25,274 bases of DNA, from positions 1 to 25,274 of IMG/VR virus record IMGVR_UViG_3300037069_001212, one strand, 5' to 3'. Numbering within the stretch: the first letter of the stretch is position 1; the number at the start of each line of letters is the position of its first letter. Under the pieces are notes generated by a model. It had not been told where the DNA came from and made no database searches. It saw only the letters and a program-made list of their open reading frames with translations. Shown here one piece after another: positions 2,283 to 24,291 of this stretch. The position numbers and the translations under genes are program-made. The stretch is from a virus.

Positions 2283-5200
2283 TCACACGCTCTTTGAATC
2301 CGGCACACGAGTAGCGCCCGATTTCTGTGAGGTTTCGAGTTCGAGGCCAGTAATGACAATGGCTTCACCCGTACCATTATCTACTAGCTTAAATCTGACA
2401 GCTTGACCAACTTGGCGTGGAGCACGCACACGCCAGTTTTGCGCATTGCCGGTTGTCAGGCCCGAGGGTGTATAGGCAATGCTGTAAGTGTATTCCTCGT
2501 CGTAATCCCACCCAAAATACAGCGTGAGAGAGTGATTGTCGCGGAAGTCTCCGAGTACATTCACGCGGCGCAAGCGGCCCCATCCCTGCGGCCCTGCCAG
2601 CGGTATCCACCCAGTTTCGATGGTCATTGGGACGGGCGCGGTGCCGTCAGTGTAGCGCACGACCCCATCTGTGTTGTACGGGCCGGCGTCCTGAAAGACG
2701 GTGTTGCCAGCAAGGGCAAAGTAATTGCTTTGGTACATCGCCTGCCCTGCCACCCGAGCCGAACCAGCAGCAAGGGGATTAAAGCGGTACTGACTCCACT
2801 TTGTCTGCAGGTAATCCAGCACAAGGACCACGTTATCCGCCGCAGTGCCGGCAATGGTCGGATCGTTGCTGCGCAAGGCGAAACGTATTTGGTTCTGCGC
2901 GGGCACAATCACTGCGCCTGTAATCGAGGAAGCGTTGACGATGCGTTCGACTTGGGCGCCGGGATAGCTCACCTGCAGGGAGCGGTCGATCATCTGTATG
3001 CCGCGCACAGAGCGGAAATACACGCCGACCTCCGTAGATACAATCGAGGCACTTTCAAGGCAGCCAGTGTCCGTTGCTACGGCGTAAGTGTTATTGAATG
3101 CGCCGGCGCCAGTGGGGTCAGGACCGTCACCTGCCAGGATAAAGATACGCTCCGCCTTGAAAATGATCACGTTCTGGTCGAGGACAGCAAGGCCCGTAAT
3201 GTCACCCGACGGGGGGTCAATGTCGAGGAAGGACAGCGCGTTAAACTCTGGTGGCCGACCGGGGAAATACGGCTTGCCAAAATACAGCCAGCTGCGATTT
3301 TCAGCCGACGCCACGAAAGGTCGCTTGATCGTCGTCACCGCAAAGCTGCTGGCAGGTGGCGGATCGTTCGGCAGCTCGCCACCACCTGGCTGCGAATACA
3401 GCTGCGGGTTCGCCGAATTGTCGTCGGGTGAAAGGTCGTAGTATCCTGGCTGCCCAGCCGGATATTGCGGAATTTGATCTTGCGCGAGGGAAACCGTCTC
3501 CACCATGGGGAAGTAGGTCAGCGACGGAATGCGCCGATACGTCAGGGGATCTTTGCTGTTGTTGCGGTACCAGATTATTTCCCCTCTGGTGGGAGTTAAT
3601 ATATCACCCACGATAAGAGGCAGTCGTGGATGTGCGTAAAACACCTTGCCGGTGTTGTCTGTGAAATCAGCAGCGAGGCCCGTATTGGCCACATAACCGC
3701 TGAAACTTTTCGCCAGATAAAGCACAGGCGAGGGGCTACTGTAAATCACGTTGCCGTATGCATCGTAATCTGCCCACACGGCAACATAACTGTAGGCAAA
3801 ACCGCGCACGAGAAGCTGCGATCCGCTGCGATATGCTTGGTCCATACCTGGGGATTCCGGGTACTTTACCCACCCTAACGACCGACACTCCTGCCCGTCG
3901 TAATACCGTGTATGCCCGCCAGTGATAAGCGCGCCCTGGTTCAGCTTGCAAATGGAGGGATACGGCTGCGCGTCGATGCGTACACGTTTAATGGCAGCAA
4001 TACGGTTGGGAATGTCCGTCAACTGAAACGCCAAAATAGCGGAATCGACCACGTTGCAAGGCTGTCGCGCAAGTAGGGATGCGCCTGCCCGCAGATAAAA
4101 GCATGAGGCATAGATACTTTTCCTGGGAACTACCGCGTCACCCACTGGAATCAACACTAACGCATTTATCGTATCGGGATTGATTAATTGCACCATCACC
4201 CAAACGACAGGCTGCCCATCCGGTGCAAGGAATATCCGCGACTGCAGATAGCTGCCGACACTGCCCGTTTTCGAGCCGATGTAATTCGCAAATGGCATAG
4301 CGTAGTCTACGATGAGACTATCCGAATAAACCGTCGTGGCTACACCTGTGTTCGGATTAACGCTGAGCTTTTGATACACGAGGCCGTCAGTGACATATGC
4401 AACGTAATTAGACCCGTCCTGAAAGACCCCCACAGAGATAGGCTGATTTGGTGAGGGTGTGGCGCCATCATACGTCTTGACTGTCAGCAAACCGGGAGAC
4501 GGGCAAGACGGGGGGCGCATGAAGTCGATTGTATTTGTGCGGGCAATTGCGTACACAGCCGTTGCCGGCAATGCGCCGTTTACTCGTGGCGATGCCGCTA
4601 CCGCAATTGGTCCGGCGGTGCCTTCAGCAGTCCGCGCATACGTCGTTAAACTGTCGCCGCTGACGAGGCCATACTGTACGCGCTCCGGCGTCGGGATAAA
4701 CGAGATTGGCTTGTTCGCTGTTGACGCGATCGTGTTTTGCTTACTGACAGCAACTACTAAATCGGAGCCATTTGTTTGCATGTCGAAATACAACGGACAA
4801 GTGACACTCGAACTAACGCCCCCCGGCGTACTGTAAAAGGCAGCCGGAATTGTCTCGCCGGATGTACCGTTGGTTACTCGCGTACAATTCGTGTAGGCAA
4901 CCGACGTGATGGTCGGGATGTTAAGCGCCAGCGCGGCGGGCGTGCCCAAACGAAATGTCTGCAGATAATACATATATCCGCCGAACACATACGACTCGAC
5001 TCGATAATCGGTAGTAAATAGCGCGCCAACGAAACTCAGATAGAATTGACCGTTGAATGCGCGGACGATGGGATACCCGACACCGTAAGTCTGTGCTTGA
5101 GTTAACCCATTTGCGAGTAACTGTGTATCGAAACTGAAATTCATCGACGTTGAATAAAACGGGCTTGAGATCGTCTGCTTCCACAGCGTCTTGCCTGTGC

Positions 5201-5688: not shown

Positions 5689-6357
5689 TTAGTGGTACCA
5701 CGCTTCGAGCATCTCATCGTCATCAAGGATGCGATTGCCCGAGTTGGCATCACGTCGTAATAGCGATTTCTCGATCTGTCCCATGATCTGCTGGTTGATC
5801 ATCTGGAGGTCGGCGCTGTTAACCTCCTCCTTCGTCTTGGCGTAAATCACGGCACTGTTGATGATCCACTGCTCCTGCCCGCTGAGCTGGTAGTAAGGCA
5901 GCGAATCTGTGTCTGCCACCAGCGGAATATACTGCGGGACGTACCACATCACCAGCATCGAGCCATCCGCTACCGTGGGCGCCGGATCAATGCGAATGGC
6001 ATTGCGCATCAAGTGGTACCGAAATGGCGCAAGACCACACGTCCGCGACCTCGTACCGTGACGGTACTGCGACGGGTTGTAGCTCTTGATGGGGAGATAT
6101 TTCCCGTTCGTCCCTACGTAGAACAAGCGCAGCATGTTGCGCATATCGGTAGGGACGAGGTAGACGTGCTGACCTGCAAGCAGACCTTGGAAGGCTTCCT
6201 CTTTTACGCGCCAGGGATCGCCGTCTGCGATGGTGTTATGGAGTAGAGCGGCAGCGTTGTTGATGTAGTTGTTCATCTCGGGGATGCCGAGATACTGGGA
6301 CTGGCCCTCATCCATTAACTGATAGGCGCGATTGCGCAGTTCCAGGAGCGTCAACAT
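5689..6357 (-). CDS. Head-tail adaptor (tail tubular protein A-like)
   Basis: The 222-residue protein starts MLTLLELRNRAYQLMDE, followed by YLGIPEMNNYINNAAALLHN. The pattern 'TLxELRxRxxxLxDE...I...E...YINxA...L' is characteristic of podoviral and siphoviral adaptor proteins that form a ring under the portal. Its size matches T7 gp11 (about 196 aa) and related adaptors. A central stretch contains RTCGLAPFRYHLM and an aromatic-rich stretch MLVMWYVPQYIPLV. The C-terminus is helical (QQIMGQIEKSLLRRD). It lies between the capsid genes and the nozzle-like gene, where an adaptor is expected. A ribosome site (AAGGTGG) precedes the ATG. Confidence 0.75.
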   Translation of the reverse strand: MLTLLELRNRAYQLMDEGQSQYLGIPEMNNYINNAAALLHNTIADGDPWRVKEEAFQGLLAGQHVYLVPTDMRNMLRLFYVGTNGKYLPIKSYNPSQYRHGTRSRTCGLAPFRYHLMRNAIRIDPAPTVADGSMLVMWYVPQYIPLVADTDSLPYYQLSGQEQWIINSAVIYAKTKEEVNSADLQMINQQIMGQIEKSLLRRDANSGNRILDDDEMLEAWYH

Positions 6358-11152: not shown

Positions 11153-12548
11153 CGCTTCCCTCTTTCGGTTTCTCCGCCATCCGCTTGGCAGCGTAGTGCT
11201 TGCTGGCACGCCAGGCATACAGCGCGGCGTCGCCTAAGTCACTGTGCGATAATAACACCCTTTTGTCAGAAACTCGAAACCTTCGGGTCATTTTCCGCCA
11301 TTCCATGGCAGTATCCGACGCTCTGTTGGCACGAATGCGCCCCAGCATGAAATCACTGTTCATCTGGGCGATGTTGCCTAGCTTGTTGCCCGATTTGTCT
11401 GCCGGCTGGAATGGCAGGTTGTGGCGTGTCTGCAGGTCGGTCACGATGCCGCGCCCGTAACCGCCCGTATCCGCCACCATCTGCGTAAATGCGCCGTAGG
11501 TCTTGATGAGGTCTTTCGTGTGGTTGGCGATGTCATCAATGCTCATGCGTGCTTTGTGATGTTCATGCACGAGGTATATTTCTAGGCATGTCATGGCAAA
11601 GGCAAACACAATGAAGGCATTCTCGTCGCGCTCGCCGAGGTCAAGGCCCAACACAAAGTGCCACTTGTGGGCAGATGACAGGTCGTGTATCGAATTGCCG
11701 TGCCAGCCGTTGCGGTTGTCATCGTAGAAATATACGCGCTCTGTCTCGTCCGTACACCATTCCGCCAGCTGCTCGCGGCGGAATTTGGGAGAATCGCGGT
11801 TCAGACCGAACGGGAAATATTCCCGCCGCTCGATCATGTCGAGGTCGCGTGCCTCTGGAGGCAGGAAACTGTTATCGCTTTTAATCCAACAGTGGACGCT
11901 CCACCCCTCGGGCTTTTTGACCGTCACGGTGTAGAACATGCCGTCAAGTACACTGCCAGGCGTCCCGCCGAGGATGAGCACGCCATCGTAATCCTCAAGA
12001 CCAGGCATTGCGGCCTCAATCATCAATTCTTCAAAGTGAGGGCCGAAATCCTTGCACTCGTCGAGGAACACGGCACTCCAGGCATTTCCACGTAGGCGAG
12101 CGGCGGAATCCTTGTTCTTGGCGCCGAACACGTAAATATGCGTGCCGTTGGGCGCCACGACGCAGTTATCGGCAATCTTGAATTCAAGGCCCAGCTGCAA
12201 TGCTTCATTCATTTTGCGCAAGGGGCGCCAGAAAAGGCGCTGTGCGTGCTCTTTAGAGCTGGGCACTACGTAGGCAATGTCGGAGCCTGGGTGCTGGCGC
12301 GACACAATGAGTGCCACGAACATCAACGTGGTCGTCTTGCCTGTACGGCGTGGGCAGAGCAGAGCTTTACGTTTGCAGGGATCGAGTAGGAATGCCTGCT
12401 GTTTTTTGTGGCACTTGTCTAGAAAGAATTTCCATTCAGCGCCCGTTAAGGGATCGGGGCGCTTATCAAATAAGACCGTATCGCGCTGGGTCTTGCGCTT
12501 GGCCAACTCCGCAAGGGCTGCCTTGCGGGCTATCGCATTCGGCGTCAT
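11025..12548 (-). CDS. terL: Terminase large subunit
   Basis: This is the ATP-driven motor and nuclease that packages DNA into the procapsid through the portal. Of 507 residues, the ATPase is N-terminal: Walker A CPRRTGKTT at 65-73, Walker B SAVFLDECKDF at 158-168 and the coupling motif GGTPGS at 194-199. The C-terminal RNase H-like nuclease shows its three acidic positions: D303 in VLGLDLGERDENAF, D360 in MVADTGGYG, and D437/D440 in SHSDLGDAALYAWR. The C-terminal tail is Gln/Glu/Arg-rich. The start overlaps the upstream stop as ATGA. All key catalytic residues are present and the length is normal for the family. Confidence 0.95.
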   Translation of the reverse strand: MTPNAIARKAALAELAKRKTQRDTVLFDKRPDPLTGAEWKFFLDKCHKKQQAFLLDPCKRKALLCPRRTGKTTTLMFVALIVSRQHPGSDIAYVVPSSKEHAQRLFWRPLRKMNEALQLGLEFKIADNCVVAPNGTHIYVFGAKNKDSAARLRGNAWSAVFLDECKDFGPHFEELMIEAAMPGLEDYDGVLILGGTPGSVLDGMFYTVTVKKPEGWSVHCWIKSDNSFLPPEARDLDMIERREYFPFGLNRDSPKFRREQLAEWCTDETERVYFYDDNRNGWHGNSIHDLSSAHKWHFVLGLDLGERDENAFIVFAFAMTCLEIYLVHEHHKARMSIDDIANHTKDLIKTYGAFTQMVADTGGYGRGIVTDLQTRHNLPFQPADKSGNKLGNIAQMNSDFMLGRIRANRASDTAMEWRKMTRRFRVSDKRVLLSHSDLGDAALYAWRASKHYAAKRMAEKPKEGSDEWYRQQEQEAVERALASRRQRGEWGGQALSDTHSTFYLDHA

Positions 12549-13036
12549 TTGGCGTCAAGCAGCCAGGGATTGAAACGCAAACGCACCACCTTGCGAATGT
12601 CCTTGAGGTAGTAGTTCCAGTGGGTCGCAACAATGATGCGGTCGCGGTACCACCCGTGCGCTTTGAGCATCTCGGTTGCTATACCCTGTCGGCGGAATGG
12701 ATTCTTCACAAACGTGTAATGCACCACAAGCGGTACATGGTCGTCTGAGGGCGTCTCTGCCACGCAATAACCGTAAATGTACCACGGTTTTTCGCGGTCA
12801 CAAGCAATTACCACGCGGGCAGTCTGGCTCACCTTCATAATCCGCCGCTGCACGCCCTCGAAGTAATCGTCGTTGGTGGCATCACGAAATACACCGCGCA
12901 TCGACACGAGCCACGAGTTTAAAATAAACTTGGCGTCGTCTAGCTCATAAGGGCGCAGCGTGACGTGAGCCACGCCCGGCGCCTCGGTCGGCAACGGGCC
13001 GGTCGGCGACGGCAGGTGGTCGCGAATGTCGGTCAT
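12545..13036 (-). CDS. GNAT-fold acetyltransferase-like protein in the terminase operon
   Basis: The 163-residue protein has the acetyl-CoA pyrophosphate loop of GNAT proteins, NPFRRQGIATEML (residues about 112-124), after a strand VPLVVHYTFV. The end, ATHWNYYLKDIRKV then FNPWLLDAK, is a phage-type ending rather than that of a metabolic GNAT. It occupies the place where a small terminase subunit would usually sit, coupled to the large terminase by an ATGA overlap. Its substrate is unknown. Mu Mom, a DNA modifier, also has a GNAT-like fold, so DNA or protein modification during packaging is one possibility. The start is uncertain: in-frame ATGs lie 13 and 15 codons upstream, none with a strong ribosome site; I chose the one with GAGG about 10 nt before it. 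Confidence 0.75.
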   Translation of the reverse strand: MTDIRDHLPSPTGPLPTEAPGVAHVTLRPYELDDAKFILNSWLVSMRGVFRDATNDDYFEGVQRRIMKVSQTARVVIACDREKPWYIYGYCVAETPSDDHVPLVVHYTFVKNPFRRQGIATEMLKAHGWYRDRIIVATHWNYYLKDIRKVVRLRFNPWLLDAK

Positions 13037-13106
13037 TTGCAGGGAGCCTCTCTGACTGGCAAATATATTTGCCATGGCCACGCCAGTCAGGCATAGTTTA
13101 CGCTTA

Positions 13107-16745: not shown

Positions 16746-16787
16746 ATATCATCACCTTAGCCCGCTTTACGCGGGTTAAGGCATTGC
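16746..16787 (+). repeat. 42-bp direct repeat with hairpin, copy 1
   Basis: It differs from copy 2 at 6 of 42 positions. It starts ATATCATC, contains the stem CCCGC/GCGGG with loop TTTAC (extendable to 9 bp with one G-T pair) and ends GGCATTGC. It lies between island genes 2 and 3 where a TATATT box is absent, so it may serve as an attenuator, a processing site or an alternative promoter region. Confidence 0.6.
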
Positions 16788-17570: not shown

Positions 17571-17612
17571 ATATCATCGCCCTAGCCCGCTCTACGCGGG
17601 CATAGGCATTGC
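17571..17612 (+). repeat. 42-bp direct repeat with hairpin, copy 2
   Basis: Partner of the copy at 16746. The stem GCCCGC/GCGGGC has loop TCTAC (17585-17601). As in copy 1, it is followed closely by a hairpin leader and lacks a TATATT box nearby. Confidence 0.6.
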
Positions 17613-17989: not shown

Positions 17990-18207
17990 ATGGCTGGAAA
18001 AACTACGAGACGTGGAATGTGAGCCTGTGGATAAGCAACGATGAGCGGTGGTATCGCATGGCTTGCGCCTGTGAGGACAGCTACGCGGAATTTTGCGCCC
18101 GCATGGCGTATCACGGCATCACGCGAACGCCAGACGGCGTTGACCTACAGCATCCCGATCTAGATATACCTGCACTCAATCAGGTGATTGAAGAAATAGA
18201 CCGCTAG
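17986..18207 (+). CDS. 73-aa conserved small phage protein (NYETWNV type)
   Basis: It opens MNGWKNYETWNVSLWISNDE and continues with an Ala/Cys-containing helix, ending HPDLDIPALNQVIEEI. The 'NxETWNVxLWIxND ... GITxTPDGVxxxxPxLDIxxLN' pattern is widespread in short uncharacterised phage and plasmid proteins, from memory, so it is likely a conserved family, though its function is not known. Translation is coupled to the previous gene through ATGA, with no separate leader. Confidence 0.8.
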   Translation: MNGWKNYETWNVSLWISNDERWYRMACACEDSYAEFCARMAYHGITRTPDGVDLQHPDLDIPALNQVIEEIDR

Positions 18208-18304: not shown

Positions 18305-18775
18305 ATGCCCCGCGAATGGCTGCGCCCGATTCATACCGACAATGTGCCTACTTATGGCGACGAGCCATGTACGTGGACCTATGAGGGGATCAAAGGCGAA
18401 CTATACTACCAAATACACCTAGCGCCCCTAGGTTCCCTGCTAGGCAAGCCGAGCAAGGAGACGCCACGCTACAGCATCGTTACCAGCGAGTTAGACTTGA
18501 GGGGGCGCAAGGATATGGTGCCGCGCAACATCGACGCCATGGTACGTATATTTGACAACAAGGGCGCTACCTCAACCGTGGACACCGTGGAGACACGCAA
18601 TGCAAGGGATGCCGTGATTCAGGCACGCAAGAAGCTACTGAGCGTTGTCAAGGCGAAGCGAGCCGAGCGGTCATCCCCGCGACAGGAGCCCACGCACGCA
18701 CCGTCACAAGAGCAAGAGCCCACGCTGGAGCCCACGCACGCATTCAAGGATGATTTCGATACACTACCCGGTTGA
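18305..18775 (+). CDS. 156-aa hypothetical protein with Pro/Glu/Thr repeat tail (island gene)
   Basis: The N-terminus is Trp/Pro-rich (MPREWLRPIHTDNVPTYGDE) with CTWTYEGIKGELYYQIHL, then a beta-rich part (RYSIVTSELDLRGRKDM) and a long helix (ARDAVIQARKKLLSVVKAKRAER). The tail repeats EPTHAPSQEQ/EPTLEPTHAF, an imperfect EPTHA tandem. GGAG precedes the ATG at 7 nt. Its end overlaps the end of the convergent acetyltransferase gene by 32 nt. No family was recognised. Confidence 0.75.
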   Translation: MPREWLRPIHTDNVPTYGDEPCTWTYEGIKGELYYQIHLAPLGSLLGKPSKETPRYSIVTSELDLRGRKDMVPRNIDAMVRIFDNKGATSTVDTVETRNARDAVIQARKKLLSVVKAKRAERSSPRQEPTHAPSQEQEPTLEPTHAFKDDFDTLPG

Positions 18776-19151
18776 CACTCCATATTCCCGCTCGCGTCGC
18801 GCCATGGGCGGCCCACATTGCCTCTAGGCGCGGCGTTAGAGGGTGACCCGTCACTTGACCTACCCCTGCCGCCCAAAACGTCGTCATGAGCGTTTGTACA
18901 AGCCTCTGAGGGATGCCTTTGCCGCGGTGCATCGGTGCTACGTATAGCTCATCCGCGTATCCCACGTCCGGGCGCTCTAATATGCGCGTATGAGGCATCG
19001 GCCCCACGTTGAAGCCTCGCGTAAAACCTGCAATCTCGCCGTCTAACTCCGCAAGGAAAATATACTCGCGCCATGGTGACGGCTGCAGGGACCGCTCCAC
19101 TATCGTGGCGACCTGCGCGGTGGAGTGCGCGGGAAGCATTTCGACCACCAT
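18744..19151 (-). CDS. GNAT-family N-acetyltransferase
   Basis: The acetyl-CoA binding signature is clear: DELYVAPMHRGKGIPQRLV, with the R/Q-x-x-G-x-G/A loop RGKGIP at residues 76-81. It is preceded by FLAELDGEIAGF (motif D/strand 4) and followed by MWAAHGATRAGI (motif B). The first ATG inside the domain gives 135 residues; the frame is open 65 codons further, but that part would lie antisense to the next gene and its leader, so the extra N-terminus is doubtful. No good ribosome site is visible at any start, and an N-terminal strand (ILTVHPYGLEYIS) may be real. The target is unknown; it could modify a small molecule, toxin or host protein. Confidence 0.75.
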   Translation of the reverse strand: MVVEMLPAHSTAQVATIVERSLQPSPWREYIFLAELDGEIAGFTRGFNVGPMPHTRILERPDVGYADELYVAPMHRGKGIPQRLVQTLMTTFWAAGVGQVTGHPLTPRLEAMWAAHGATRAGIWSVNRVVYRNHP

Positions 19152-19224
19152 GTCGTGCCATAGCTTGCTATATAATGAAATATATTCTAGCCCGTAGGGG
19201 TGTACTGTGAGTATATTACCTGCT

Positions 19225-19272
19225 GGCAATCGGTATTGCCACGTCCATTGCGAGTTACAGGGAGATTCTGAA
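19225..19272 (+). promoter_or_regulatory. Hairpin leader G
   Basis: GGCAAT and ATTGCC form a 6-bp stem with loop CGGT (19225-19240), followed by AGTTACAGGGAG and the ATG. A TATATT box (GAGTATATTACC) lies just upstream. The loop is shorter than in leaders A-E. Confidence 0.55.
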
Positions 19273-19461
19273 ATGTTTTGGTTACTCACGCTGCTTGTCA
19301 TTGCCACCGCCCTTGCCGGCACGATTGCCGGCGCCCATGGATTCATATTCGGGAGCCTAAGCCCGCTTGTGTCCGTTTACCTACTGTATGTGGCGGGTGG
19401 TGTCCTATGGCACACGACGCACCTTTTCATTGGCGCTTTTAAAGCCAATCAGGAGCCCTGA
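19273..19461 (+). CDS. 62-aa membrane protein, two predicted TM helices (island gene)
   Basis: Residues about 3-23 (LLTLLVIATALAGTIAG) and 29-50 (LSPLVSVYLLYVAGGVLW) are hydrophobic enough for two transmembrane helices with a short loop between. The C-terminus (HTTHLFIGAFKANQEP) would be cytoplasmic or periplasmic. The start is fixed by leader G. Small early membrane proteins may alter host envelope functions or act as superinfection exclusion; a holin is less likely because no lysis genes are nearby. The class is unproven. Confidence 0.7.
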   Translation: MFWLLTLLVIATALAGTIAGAHGFIFGSLSPLVSVYLLYVAGGVLWHTTHLFIGAFKANQEP

Positions 19462-19463
19462 GA

Positions 19464-19595
19464 ATGGACGAGGACGACTGGCTGGAGCTACCGCCTCCAA
19501 GTGACGTCAGCGACGCCGACAGCGAGGCACACGGCGAGGATGGCGACGATGCCTACGACGTGTATCCACCGCCCGGTACCCACGGGTATACTTGA
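19464..19595 (+). CDS. 43-aa extremely acidic protein
   Basis: AGGAG lies 8 nt before the ATG, and the gene starts 2 nt after the preceding stop. The product (MDEDDWLELPPPSDVSDADS, then EAHGEDGDDAYDVYPPP) has 14 Asp/Glu in 43 residues and no Lys or Arg. Such acidity resembles DNA-mimic or inhibitor proteins, but disorder alone would give the same look. Its last codons overlap a promoter-like ACGGGTATAC sequence. The short length lowers confidence. Confidence 0.6.
   Translation: MDEDDWLELPPPSDVSDADSEAHGEDGDDAYDVYPPPGTHGYT
19582..19591 (+). promoter_or_regulatory. Promoter-like box ACGGGTATAC pointing into the iteron region
   Basis: ACGGGTATAC resembles the ACGGGTATAT of leaders A, B and D, and CGCCCG lies upstream as in B. 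It could start an RNA across the iteron region. No gene follows on this strand. Confidence 0.35.
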
Positions 19596-19623: not shown

Positions 19624-19863
19624 GTGTTAGGATCATCCTAACACGTTAAACGCGTTTTACGCGGTCCATTCGCCGATTGGGGCATGTGTTAGGATGGTGG
19701 GGATGTTTTCGAAGTTTTTTACCTGCGCGCGTGCGCGTGCGCTCATTTAACCTATCATTTTATCCTAACATCCTAACACATCCCTCTAAGAAGCTCTCAC
19801 ATGCAATATACGGCACTAAAACGTGTTAGGATGACCCTAACATCATCCTAACACATCCTAACA
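19624..19863. repeat. Iteron cluster GTGTTAGGAT (9 copies), candidate replication origin
   Basis: The 10-bp unit GTGTTAGGAT or its complement occurs at 19624, 19686 and 19823 (forward) and at 19635, 19762, 19770, 19845 and 19855 (reverse), with a one-base variant at 19834. The first forward and reverse copies form a palindrome around a single C. Other copies are adjacent and tandem. The region is gene-free and precedes (in replication order) the gene cluster encoding the SF3-like ATPase, so an origin bound by an initiator is the favoured reading; an operator array is the alternative. Confidence 0.7.
19724..19742. other. 19-nt alternating pyrimidine-purine tract
   Basis: The run TGCGCGCGTGCGCGTGCGC alternates pyrimidine and purine throughout and could adopt Z-DNA under negative supercoiling. 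It lies inside the iteron region. Confidence 0.4.
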
Positions 19864-19910
19864 TCCAGTATACTCCGCGGGCTGCAGGTCTACTACGCGG
19901 GCAAAATCCG

Positions 19911-19969
19911 CCCACGAAATACATCCCCAATGACCCACGAAATACACTTAATGTGGCCCACGAAATACA
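19911..19969. repeat. Second iteron family CCCACGAAATACA (3 direct copies, 23-bp period)
   Basis: CCCACGAAATACA is repeated exactly at 19911, 19934 and 19957; starts are 23 bp apart each time. The third copy ends 2 nt from the stop of the neighbouring minus-strand gene. Period and orientation match plasmid-type iterons. The unit is unrelated to the GTGTTAGGAT iteron. Confidence 0.65.
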
Positions 19970-19970
19970 C

Positions 19971-20303
19971 CTACCGCAGCCCCTCAACTACATCCCCGCT
20001 GTTGAGGTCGAGCACGCTTATCACGTACTGCGTCCCTGCGCGCCCAAAATCCCTGCGCAGGTTGTCATGCAAGATGTATGCCTCATCCCTGGGGCGTGGT
20101 CCGGAATTGAGCCGATACCACGACCCGTCGTACCTCAAGCGTATTTCCACTATGTAACGATTCTCAACTACATTCCCTGTTGACGGCAACTCGGCACGCT
20201 GCCGGTCTTTTGCCCACGAATCTCCCTGCAGTCCCCACGCAATCGCCCACACTGCCAGCCCCATCAAAACAGTACGCGCTCTCGCTGCCCACGATCCCAT
20301 CAT
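19971..20303 (-). CDS. 110-aa exported protein
   Basis: The N-terminus has the three parts of a signal peptide: basic (GSWAARARTV), hydrophobic (LMGLAVWAIAWGL) and a cleavage site after GDSWA. A mature part of about 80 residues follows (KDRQRAELPSTGNVVENRYIV), with a beta-rich, Arg/Tyr/Asp-rich region ending VLDLNSGDVVEGLR. No Cys for a lipobox and no second membrane helix were seen. GGGAG lies 6 nt before the first of two ATGs. It is the last gene of the replication unit. A periplasmic role such as superinfection exclusion or host-envelope alteration is guessed, not shown. Confidence 0.75.
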   Translation of the reverse strand: MMGSWAARARTVLMGLAVWAIAWGLQGDSWAKDRQRAELPSTGNVVENRYIVEIRLRYDGSWYRLNSGPRPRDEAYILHDNLRRDFGRAGTQYVISVLDLNSGDVVEGLR

Positions 20304-20326: not shown

Positions 20327-20545
20327 TTAATTCACCACAACATAATCATCGCCATCTGCAAGTATTTCGTTTGCATTATCTATCGAGTGCATCTTAAATC
20401 CATACGTCTCCTCCATAAACATTACGTATTTCTTTAATATAACGTAAATCTCGACGGGTGAATAATTGTGGTCGCGTCCGTACTGCTCCACCGCATCCAC
20501 AAAATCGTTGGCTCGCTCCTTACTTACGTAACTTACTTGCGCCAT
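20327..20545 (-). CDS. 72-aa hypothetical protein in the replication operon
   Basis: AAGGAG lies 6 nt before the ATG and overlaps the preceding stop. The product is helical and acidic: KERANDFVDAVEQYGRDH then SPVEIYVILKKYVMFMEETY. It ends in DDYVVVN. No family was recognised. It follows the ATPase gene with a 3-nt gap, so it could be an accessory replication factor. Confidence 0.75.
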   Translation of the reverse strand: MAQVSYVSKERANDFVDAVEQYGRDHNYSPVEIYVILKKYVMFMEETYGFKMHSIDNANEILADGDDYVVVN

Positions 20546-20548
20546 GCC

Positions 20549-21790
20549 CTACTCCTTAATTGGTGAGAGTTTAACTCCAATGACAAACCAGTATCCCCGG
20601 TGTTGCTTCATTGTGAAAGCTTCCTTCATTTCCCGCGCAAATGCCTGAATAGGGATAGGATGCCGTGACTGCATGTCGCAAAAATCCTTGTACGCTGAAT
20701 ATACCTCCATGTGTTTTAAGCGGTCGTGCTCTGCATCCGTGCGTTCAAGATGCGTGGTAGCGAAATACTCAAAGTCAGACATAGTACACAACTCTGCCTG
20801 GTACTTCGCAAAAAGGTCGCGTACCTTAAATGCCGGTGGCTCACTGGCTGCATCGCCAGATTCCACCCCCCACATTAAATTGAAGTCAAGCGCATTGACA
20901 CGCGCGCCGAATTCCTCAGTGTACGAATCATCCCTGCACCGTAACTCCACAAAGCGGCGCATCCCTGAATTGTCTACTAAAACTGACGTAACAGGTCGAT
21001 TCGTCGTGGCAATGAAATTCGCATTGCGTGTCAGCTGCCGTTCCGTCTCAGTATGCATTGCTCTATTTTGCACCGTGGGCGCGGTGATTACTTGCTTAAC
21101 TGTGTTGATGTCAGTTTTTGATGCCTTGCCCATTTCGTCAAGACATATCATGTAATAGGCATTTAATTGACGCAGACGGAATTTGTCACTAAACAGGGAG
21201 AAATCCGCCACAGGTAAAAACAGTATCCCTAAAGGCGCGCCAAACTTTGCCACTGCTGTTGACTTGCCTGTGCCTTGCCTGCTATAAAGGCACAGCATAA
21301 TTTCCCACGCCGTTGCATTCCCGCGCAGCCTACGCTTGACTTGCCATATCAGTTGCCGGAATGCCTCGACGTAATATGCCAGACGTTCTGGCTCTGTGTC
21401 GGGATGCGCCAGTAATTCCACAAACCGCGTTAGCTCACGCACGGCACGCATCTGATAGGCGTCAACATCCCCGCGATACGCCGCGGGCACTTCGAGGATT
21501 TTATCCCGCGCCTTGGCAACCTCTGCCGCTCGCATTTGCCTACACATGCGCCGCATTACGATGCGAAATCCCTTCAGCGGTAGGTCCATATACTCTGCCC
21601 ACGCTTGGTCGGCAATGTCGTCGGGCGTGAGCGACTCCCCGCTCGCCTCGAAGCTGCCCGCGCCCACAAGGAATCGCGCCCCCATTTCCATCACCTTGCG
21701 GGCAATTAGGCGCTCGATGGTCTTGTGCGCGGGGACGTCCCCGATCGGCCCATCTGCCTCGCCATCCACGACTGCTAATTTCTTGCCCAC
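20549..21790 (-). CDS. SF3-like / primase-helicase-type replication ATPase
   Basis: The 413-residue protein has Walker A GTGKST (173-178), Walker B ICLDEM (215-220), NFIATTNRP (258-266) and a candidate arginine finger in SGMRRFVEL (275-283). This is the layout of the VirE/D5-like 'primase-helicase' ATPases found in phages and mobile elements. The first ~160 residues show no recognisable primase motif. The start is taken as a GTG with GGGAGG at 5 nt; a TTG further upstream lacks such a site. It is the first gene of a three-gene minus-strand unit next to the iterons. It probably loads or acts as the replicative helicase at that origin. Confidence 0.88.
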   Translation of the reverse strand: MGKKLAVVDGEADGPIGDVPAHKTIERLIARKVMEMGARFLVGAGSFEASGESLTPDDIADQAWAEYMDLPLKGFRIVMRRMCRQMRAAEVAKARDKILEVPAAYRGDVDAYQMRAVRELTRFVELLAHPDTEPERLAYYVEAFRQLIWQVKRRLRGNATAWEIMLCLYSRQGTGKSTAVAKFGAPLGILFLPVADFSLFSDKFRLRQLNAYYMICLDEMGKASKTDINTVKQVITAPTVQNRAMHTETERQLTRNANFIATTNRPVTSVLVDNSGMRRFVELRCRDDSYTEEFGARVNALDFNLMWGVESGDAASEPPAFKVRDLFAKYQAELCTMSDFEYFATTHLERTDAEHDRLKHMEVYSAYKDFCDMQSRHPIPIQAFAREMKEAFTMKQHRGYWFVIGVKLSPIKE

Positions 21791-22197: not shown

Positions 22198-24291
22198 TCA
22201 AGTGGAAAAGCTCACCCATAGCGCAGTGTTTATGTAAGTGGTGCCAAGGAGGTACGTACTCCAGTTTGTGCCTTTGATTGCGACGCCGAGCAGGTCACCG
22301 GCGTTGATGGTGATGGTGCCTGTTGGGATGAGCACCTTGCCACTCGTAGTGGTCGCCGACACCGTGACACCGTAAGAGGTCATCACTGTTCCTTTGACCA
22401 TCGGATACGCTGTCAGTGTGCCATTAAATCCTCCTGGCACATACGCCACGATTCCAATCACGCTGCCGGCAAGCGGAAACACGGTCGTCTCGTCGTTGGC
22501 CGCGCCTGCATTTACCGTGCCATTGCTCGACAGCCGCGCATTGCTAGTTTGCGTGGCACACATCGGCACGACGTAGCGGTCTACGCATGTTACTTTGCCG
22601 CTGAAAACTCCTGTAACACCTGTTACACTGCTTAAACTCGTGACACTCTGCCCCGAGATTGCGCCCGATGCCGTCAGTGCAGCCGTATTGAGCGTTGTGG
22701 TGGCGGTCAGCGTCGGCGCGGTCACCGCCACTCCTGCCGTGATGTTATTAGTGGCGGTAACATTTGTACCGGAAATCGTTGGCGCATTTACGCTGTTGCC
22801 TGTCACTGCGCCAGTCGCAGATACGTTAGTCGCTGCCACGCTTGCGGCATTGACGGTCTGTGATGCAGTGAGCGTCCGCACCGTGACCGCATCTGCTGTT
22901 ACACCGCCGGTGATAGCAGCCGTTGCACCGCTAAGCGTGCCTGACGCCGTAATTGACGCCGCGTTGACCGAGGCCGTGGCGGTCAGCGTGCCTGCGTTGA
23001 CCGAGGATGCCGTTAACGCGTTGGTGACGGTTGCGGCGTTGACCGTAAACGTGCCAGTCGCCGAGAAATTGCCTGTCGTGACGGTCGCTGCATTTACGGC
23101 GCCGGAAAGCGTGATCGAAGCAGCCGTAATCGCACCAGCGACAGCAGCCGTATTCGCCACCACAGCATCGCCTTTCAGCGTGCCTGCTGCCGTGATGTTG
23201 GTGCCTCCAATTGTGGGCGCTTGTACGGATGTGCTGCCGATGATGTTGACGCCACGCACGTCGCCACTGGCGGTGATGTTAACGCCAGACAGGTTGCCGG
23301 TCGTAGACAGTGACGGCACGGTAATTGCATGTGACACAGTGAGGTCAGTCACCGTTGCCGTAGGTGTCGTCACACTCCCTGCAGAGAGCGCATTCGTGAC
23401 AGTCGCCGAGCCACCTACAGTGAGGTCGCTGCGGACATTTGCGTTGGCTGCCGACAGGTCGCCTTGCGACACCACACTGCCGAGCGTGCCCACGCCCGCC
23501 ACAGTGAGCGACGCGCCCTTTAACTCCCCGACACTCTCGACGGTCGCTGCCTTCAGAGCGCCGCTTGCAGTGATGGCCGCCACAGTGGCATTGCCGCCGA
23601 TGGTGACACTGCCAGAAGTCTGTAGGGATGTGCCCGCTACCGCGCCGAGGTTCGCGGCCCCTGCCGTCAGTGCCCCGCTAAACGACGCATCCACGCCCGT
23701 AAACGTCTTGCCTGTGATGGCATTGCCAGCAGTGACGTTACGCGAAGCGGTCACATCCGTTGTGGAAATTGTAGTCGCGGTGGCAACGGTCTGATTGGCT
23801 GTCAGCGTGTTGACGGTGATGGCGTCTGCGGTGAGGTTGTGCGCCACAAACTCGGCGATGTTGGCTGCCGGAGAGTTAATCGTGCCTGACGCGTTAATCG
23901 TCGCGCCGTTTACGTTCGTTGCAGCAATCGTGCCAACATTCGCGGTCGTGCTGTTGAGCGTGGTAATCGTGCCTACATCGGCGTTTACCTGCGCTGCCTG
24001 CAGTGTCGTAATCGTGGCACTTGTAAGCGTCGCCGAGTTTGCGGTAATCTGCGCGAGTTTAATCGGCGCTCTCCACCACAGAGTGCCGTCACTCTCGATG
24101 GTGCCCGCGAGGTTACCGGATGCGTCAGTGTAGGTGACACGGGAGCCATCGCAGCCGACCACGAATCCCACGCCGTCCCAAGTGTATCCAGGCGCAAGTG
24201 TGGTACTTTGCGGTGCGGAAAAGCCTGACGCTGAGGTCGCCAGGTTGCTTGTGCCGGCGTCTGTAGAGCGTCCGTAAATGTCTGTGGCCAT
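22198..24291 (-). CDS. Tail fibre-like repeat protein
   Basis: The 697-residue protein has a short N-terminal part (YTWDGVGFVVGCDGSRVTYT, then LWWRAPIKLAQI). From about residue 80 to 560 it is a long repeat of Ala, Thr, Val, Asn and Gly with regularly spaced beta-strand-like blocks such as TASGTLSG, AATVTTGNFSATG and VNAPTISGTNVTA. That suits a beta-helical or triple-stranded shaft. The last ~130 residues are different and globular (CVDRYVVPMCATQ, FPLAGSVIGIVAYVP) and may bind the receptor. GGAGGG precedes the ATG. It is separated from the other virion genes by replication and island genes. No chaperone domain is at its C-terminus. Confidence 0.85.
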   Translation of the reverse strand: MATDIYGRSTDAGTSNLATSASGFSAPQSTTLAPGYTWDGVGFVVGCDGSRVTYTDASGNLAGTIESDGTLWWRAPIKLAQITANSATLTSATITTLQAAQVNADVGTITTLNSTTANVGTIAATNVNGATINASGTINSPAANIAEFVAHNLTADAITVNTLTANQTVATATTISTTDVTASRNVTAGNAITGKTFTGVDASFSGALTAGAANLGAVAGTSLQTSGSVTIGGNATVAAITASGALKAATVESVGELKGASLTVAGVGTLGSVVSQGDLSAANANVRSDLTVGGSATVTNALSAGSVTTPTATVTDLTVSHAITVPSLSTTGNLSGVNITASGDVRGVNIIGSTSVQAPTIGGTNITAAGTLKGDAVVANTAAVAGAITAASITLSGAVNAATVTTGNFSATGTFTVNAATVTNALTASSVNAGTLTATASVNAASITASGTLSGATAAITGGVTADAVTVRTLTASQTVNAASVAATNVSATGAVTGNSVNAPTISGTNVTATNNITAGVAVTAPTLTATTTLNTAALTASGAISGQSVTSLSSVTGVTGVFSGKVTCVDRYVVPMCATQTSNARLSSNGTVNAGAANDETTVFPLAGSVIGIVAYVPGGFNGTLTAYPMVKGTVMTSYGVTVSATTTSGKVLIPTGTITINAGDLLGVAIKGTNWSTYLLGTTYINTALWVSFST

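Follow-up and report, generated by a model that had tools for sequence, protein, structure and literature searches.

Genomic context of the repeat array

The window analysed in this work is the whole 25,274-base IMG/VR phage record, itself a phage fragment and not a complete genome. It encodes an SU10-like portal and adaptor, a terminase and an integrase-like gene that is cut by the contig end (24585-25274; phrog_1, E=9e-10). Neither a primase nor a polymerase was recognised in the 25-kb fragment, and no tRNA was found in the window. A GNAT acetyltransferase gene (18744-19346, minus strand; PF00583, 8.9e-10) is inserted among rightward small genes, and a second, weak GNAT match occurs at 12545-13081. 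Similar intergenic hairpin-like sequences follow small rightward genes, namely TAGCCCGCTTTACGCGGGTTAAGGC (16757-16783) and TAGCCCGCTCTACGCGGGCATAGGC (17584-17610), both on the plus strand. Besides, a 697-aa repetitive tail-fibre-like ORF (22198-24291, minus strand), which matched no PHROG family and nothing above cut-off in Pfam, lies between the integrase-like gene and the candidate initiator helicase.

The candidate helicase is a VapE-like (SF3-type) ATPase encoded on the minus strand from a GTG start at 21790 to a stop at 20549, and if this start is used the protein has the 413 residues attributed to it in the first-pass annotation. The assignment to the SF3/VapE/D5-type initiator helicases, the family found in SaPI/P4-type replication modules, relies on matches to PF05272 (VapE-like domain, E=3e-18) and PF19263 (8.5e-11), on matches to PHROG DNA helicase/primase families and on the nearest PDB sequence, the staphylococcal VapE entry 7pds ('Similar to D. 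nodosus vapE', E=1.4e-5). The C-terminal 106 residues gave weak winged-helix-like matches (RFX, 0.0022; Pox_D5, 0.035), both below the curated cut-offs, and the predicted structure was too poor for use (mean pLDDT 36).

Downstream of the ATPase gene, about 0.7 kb past its stop, lies an array of nine 10-bp GTGTTAGGAT units (19624-19864, 241 bp). Although the annotation had described the array as lying beside the replication ATPase unit, two small minus-strand ORFs of 72 aa (20327-20545) and 110 aa (19971-20303) separate it from the ATPase gene, the 110-aa ORF being the last gene before the array. The stretch is free of genes, as had been proposed, since the plus-strand genes stop by 19595 and the minus-strand genes by 19971, leaving the array between convergent flanks.

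Composition and confinement of the array

Six of the nine units are exact copies of GTGTTAGGAT, two carry an A for G at position 1 and the remaining one has two mismatches. Three units are on the plus strand (19624, 19686 and 19823) and six on the minus strand (19635, 19762, 19770, 19834, 19845 and 19855), which agrees with the number and mixed orientation first noticed; the start of the array was also placed correctly, while the last unit extends one base beyond the proposed end at 19863. The density is far above chance, as had been claimed, given that no 10-mer reached more than three copies per 250 bp in 100 dinucleotide-shuffled contigs, compared with six exact copies in the array. Exact copies were absent from the rest of the 25,274-base record, where the only other copy with one mismatch is at 4348, and the dispersal of units along the genome that the first-pass annotation regarded as contrary to its origin proposal was therefore not observed. 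When the nine units were used to derive a weight matrix, the weakest copy in the array scored 15.4 bits, compared with 12.8 for the best copy outside it and 7.3 for the next. Short repeats clustered at a single site are also a feature of SaPI/P4-type origins. The array is nonetheless not a classical plasmid iteron array, for which regularly phased direct repeats of about 20-22 bp are expected; it is iteron-like, with 10-bp units, irregular spacing and mixed orientation. No DnaA box was found beside it, the sole TTWTNCACA match in the window being at 18026, which is about the level expected by chance.

Internal layout of the array and its surroundings

The first two units (19624 and 19635) flank a single central base and together make up a perfect 21-bp palindrome, GTGTTAGGATCATCCTAACAC (19624-19644), and the units at 19823 and 19834 form a second, imperfect palindrome (19823-19843). 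These two palindromes pair with each other as a 23-nt inverted repeat with 96% complementarity, and nested inverted repeats occur between them. The centre of these inverted repeats is a CG-rich alternating pyrimidine-purine tract of the Z-DNA type, TGCGCGCGTGCGCGTGCGC (19724-19742, 19 nt), the longest in the record. It is followed, still inside the array, by an easily melted stretch (19743-19793) that lies at the 99.8th percentile of the contig for 50-bp melting ease according to nearest-neighbour energies and may represent an unwinding element. Dyad symmetry was also considered as evidence and was dropped as not significant, since the same blocks placed at random do as well in about 10% of cases. 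A second repeat set, composed of three exact plus-strand copies of CCCACGAAATACA with 23-bp spacing (19911-19969) and a degenerate fourth copy near 19980, is located beside the array.

The cumulative GC skew reaches a maximum at 19700, where the sharpest switch of the contig (from about +0.01 to -0.19) was observed. A switch at the array is thus present, as the origin proposal anticipated, but by the usual leading-strand rule a switch of this sign would mark a terminus. The direction of the genes also changes at this point, and the skew was counted neither for nor against an origin.

Search for relatives and comparison with VapE-helicase phages

Protein queries with the ATPase, portal, capsid, terminase and integrase recovered no close relatives in IMG/VR, and the ATPase core recovered none in GTDB. 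Comparison of the array DNA with plasmids (PLSDB) and named phages yielded nothing useful, and neither the exact palindrome nor the inverted-pair pattern was found in IMG/VR or GTDB. In the absence of a close relative, the proposal was tested on distant phages, namely 13 named phages with a VapE-type helicase matching the ATPase, in which the richness of short repeats directly 3' of the helicase gene was evaluated. The repeat scan was performed with 7-mers for all phages, as exact 9-mers miss the 6-7-bp unit of the Lacticaseibacillus phage JB1P3.

In Adelaide, Dina and StAB (seven copies of a 7-mer each) and in JB1P3 (10 copies), repeats were most densely packed immediately 3' of the VapE gene, and no other segment of the sequence examined was as dense, while a degenerate cluster in the same place in Stiles was seen only by eye and with a mismatch-tolerant scan. 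The remaining eight of the 13 phages (BT19, BU730P1, P2559Y, TCUEAP1, 1-A4, Faecalimonas and others) had no dense cluster 3' of the VapE gene. The Bacteroides phage BT19 has 19 copies of CCGGAAACA in 300 bp (from about 9326) and P2559Y has eight copies of ATTGTTTAC (from about 31976), in both cases away from the helicase. In JB1P3, 14 TGTCCC copies in both orientations (5971-6192) come directly after the PF05272 helicase gene, a layout similar to that of the window except for the shorter unit and the immediate adjacency.

Three of the four clear positives (Adelaide, Dina and StAB) belong to a single genus, Samwavirus. As in the window, the Corynebacterium phages of this genus (Adelaide, Dina, StAB and Stiles) have a PF05272 helicase gene followed by a gene-free stretch with about seven short units in mixed orientation (20978-21283 of the locus), the positions of which are nearly kept between phages. 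They differ from the window in that the helicase has 805 aa, the array comes directly after its gene and the unit is GGTTGTCCC or a variant of it; the function of the array is putative in these phages too. The unit changes from GGTTGTCCC in Adelaide to GTTGTTCC in StAB and GTTGTGCCAC in Stiles, and Adelaide and Dina are alike in both the unit and the helicase C-terminus. Across Adelaide, StAB and Stiles the helicases share 96-100% identity at residues ~200 to 750 and 84-94% at 750-800, with KSGDRER (Adelaide and Dina), MAGQGAR (StAB) or MAGQGVR (Stiles) at residues ~780-790, while variation is greater still over the first 200 residues than at the C-terminus. The joint change of unit and C-terminus is consistent with recognition of the array by this part of the helicase, although it amounts to only two or three events, as all four phages are from one genus.

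A scan of IMG/VR for two neighbouring TGTTAGGAT copies returned 41 contigs, of which only one (L030) resembled the window array in number and mixed orientation of units; most of the others are just two- to four-copy places and were rejected as similar arrays. Tandem decamers, among them TATGTTAGGA, grade in some phage contigs into other repeats (for example CGCAACGATC, AAGGGTTACG and TGTGGAGCAA), as if the units drift along one stretch (L024, 11305-11540; L021, 5209-5290; L025, 4352-4430). At the 3' end of a helicase gene, the environmental phage G001 (IMGVR_UViG_3300047160_018279), found by pattern scan of IMG/VR, has eight exact TTGTTAGGAT copies in mixed orientation, a number that rises to 11 if one mismatch is tolerated, and no exact TGTTAGGAT occurs outside this array in its 41.5 kb. 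Its helicase is an AAA_25 protein with a C-terminal HTH and bears no detectable similarity to the ATPase of the window, the two phages being unrelated by the tests run. As the scan was based on the unit, the place of the array counts as independent evidence but the shared TTGTTAGGAT sequence does not. In both the window and G001, the sole alternating tract of at least 18 bases lies in or beside the array. It is very doubtful, however, that TGTTAGGAT arrays with an alternating-CG tract constitute an origin element common to phages with different initiators (VapE-like and AAA_25), which a common factor would read or which would be recognised convergently, with the CG tract as a topological opening aid.

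Interpretation of the array

The array is probably a replication origin, or the initiator-binding part of one, of a SaPI/P4-like kind in which the VapE-like SF3-type helicase would act as initiator. The origin proposed in the first-pass annotation is still the best-supported interpretation, even though the skew does not sustain it and its support now comes from the comparison with other VapE phages. The density and confinement of the array, its low duplex stability and the family of the helicase also count in its favour, while the 0.7-kb offset from the helicase gene, the terminus-like skew, the lack of a recognised primase or polymerase in the fragment and the fact that most VapE phages examined have no cluster count against it.

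The strongest competing explanation is that the array is an attP, in which the 10-bp units would be arm-type sites of a tyrosine integrase flanking a strand-exchange core. The record does contain an integrase-like gene, and arm-type sites, for example those of cluster K mycobacteriophages, are about 10-11 bp long, are grouped in twos or threes and may have opposite orientations on the two sides of the core (PMC3203893). However, an attP is expected beside its integrase gene, whereas the array is 4.7 kb away, with the tail-fibre-like gene and the helicase in between; the first 72 residues of the integrase contain no recognisable arm-binding Pfam domain, and in Adelaide about 12.6 kb separate the integrase gene from the comparable array, which is located at the helicase. 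Moreover, the integrase gene is cut by the contig end and an attP may lie beyond it. Taken together, these observations make an attP at this position unlikely.

A role of the array as operator for a repressor or activator of the phage is likewise improbable, even though dense palindromic half-sites would suit a dimeric regulator. The sequence ACGGGTATA has four copies in the window (15917, 16274, 17341 and 19582), all on the plus strand, compared with 0.05 expected. The first three are located ahead of small plus-strand genes with a common leader (AGTTACACAGGAGTTTG or close before the start), and the fourth (19582-19590), 34 bp before the first unit, points into the array and would link it to these upstream gene starts. 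This copy has no gene after it, and its presence there may be a coincidence, since it overlaps the end of a 42-aa ORF, while the three other copies have no units alongside. In addition, the convergent location offers no gene start to control and no repressor gene was recognised.

The location between convergent genes could also be explained by a bidirectional transcription terminator or another structural element. A terminator-like hairpin is called at 19842-19824 (minus strand), and the single strand of the array folds better than shuffled sequences (z -6.8) and better than controls with intact units but shuffled spacers (0 of 200 as good). Nevertheless, its absolute folding energy is ordinary for the contig, such hairpin calls are common in the region (19 found, 9.2 expected) and one hairpin would suffice for termination, whereas the array has nine near-identical units, several of them in direct orientation, making this function highly unlikely. 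Least probable of all is a centromere-like partition site of a plasmid-like prophage, since, although partition sites also contain short boxes in mixed orientation, the proteins scanned included no recognisable ParA or ParB and the integrase-like gene argues for chromosomal integration. The operator, the terminator and the partition site were rated low because the place of the array or the gene content of the record fits them less well.

Proposed mechanism and relation to known replication modules

If the array is a replication origin, the putative winged-helix-like C-terminal domain of the helicase would bind the GTGTTAGGAT units, and the palindromes and inverted units could allow rings of the helicase to form in opposite orientations about the alternating-CG, easily melted centre. 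Unwinding driven by ATP would then expose the template, and replication could start with priming by a primase encoded outside the fragment. This sequence of binding, ring assembly, unwinding and replication start is suggested by analogy with related systems. The alpha protein of phage P4 is an initiator helicase of a comparable kind. In SaPIs, Rep is described as using its C-terminal domain to recognise a short-iteron origin located directly downstream of the rep gene, to which it appears to bind as two hexamers, and Cch2 of SCCmec acts like SaPI Rep on a putative origin (PMC7581432). The window resembles the SaPI module in its VapE/SF3-type helicase, in the short repeats 3' of the helicase gene (PMC7581432) and in the VapE entry as nearest PDB match, but it belongs to a tailed phage with its own structural genes, has two ORFs between the helicase gene and the array and uses another unit, and the DNA binding by its helicase is only predicted. 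The stem-loop origins of plasmid pRN1 and phage BIP-1 also have a large inverted repeat, located 3' of the gene for a winged-helix SF3 helicase (PMC4234260), but no iterons, whereas the stem arms in the window are largely the units themselves. Origins of this kind are already known, and the particulars of the proposed new one are the offset from the helicase gene, the second repeat set and the central CG tract.

If confirmed, this interpretation would provide a replication origin for a phage that has no close relative in the collections searched. Besides, the joint change of the unit and the helicase C-terminus in the Corynebacterium phages would make a recognition code directly testable. Overall, the results would support a rule for uncultured phages, according to which the origin would be found at the densest short repeats in mixed orientation located just 3' of a VapE-type gene.
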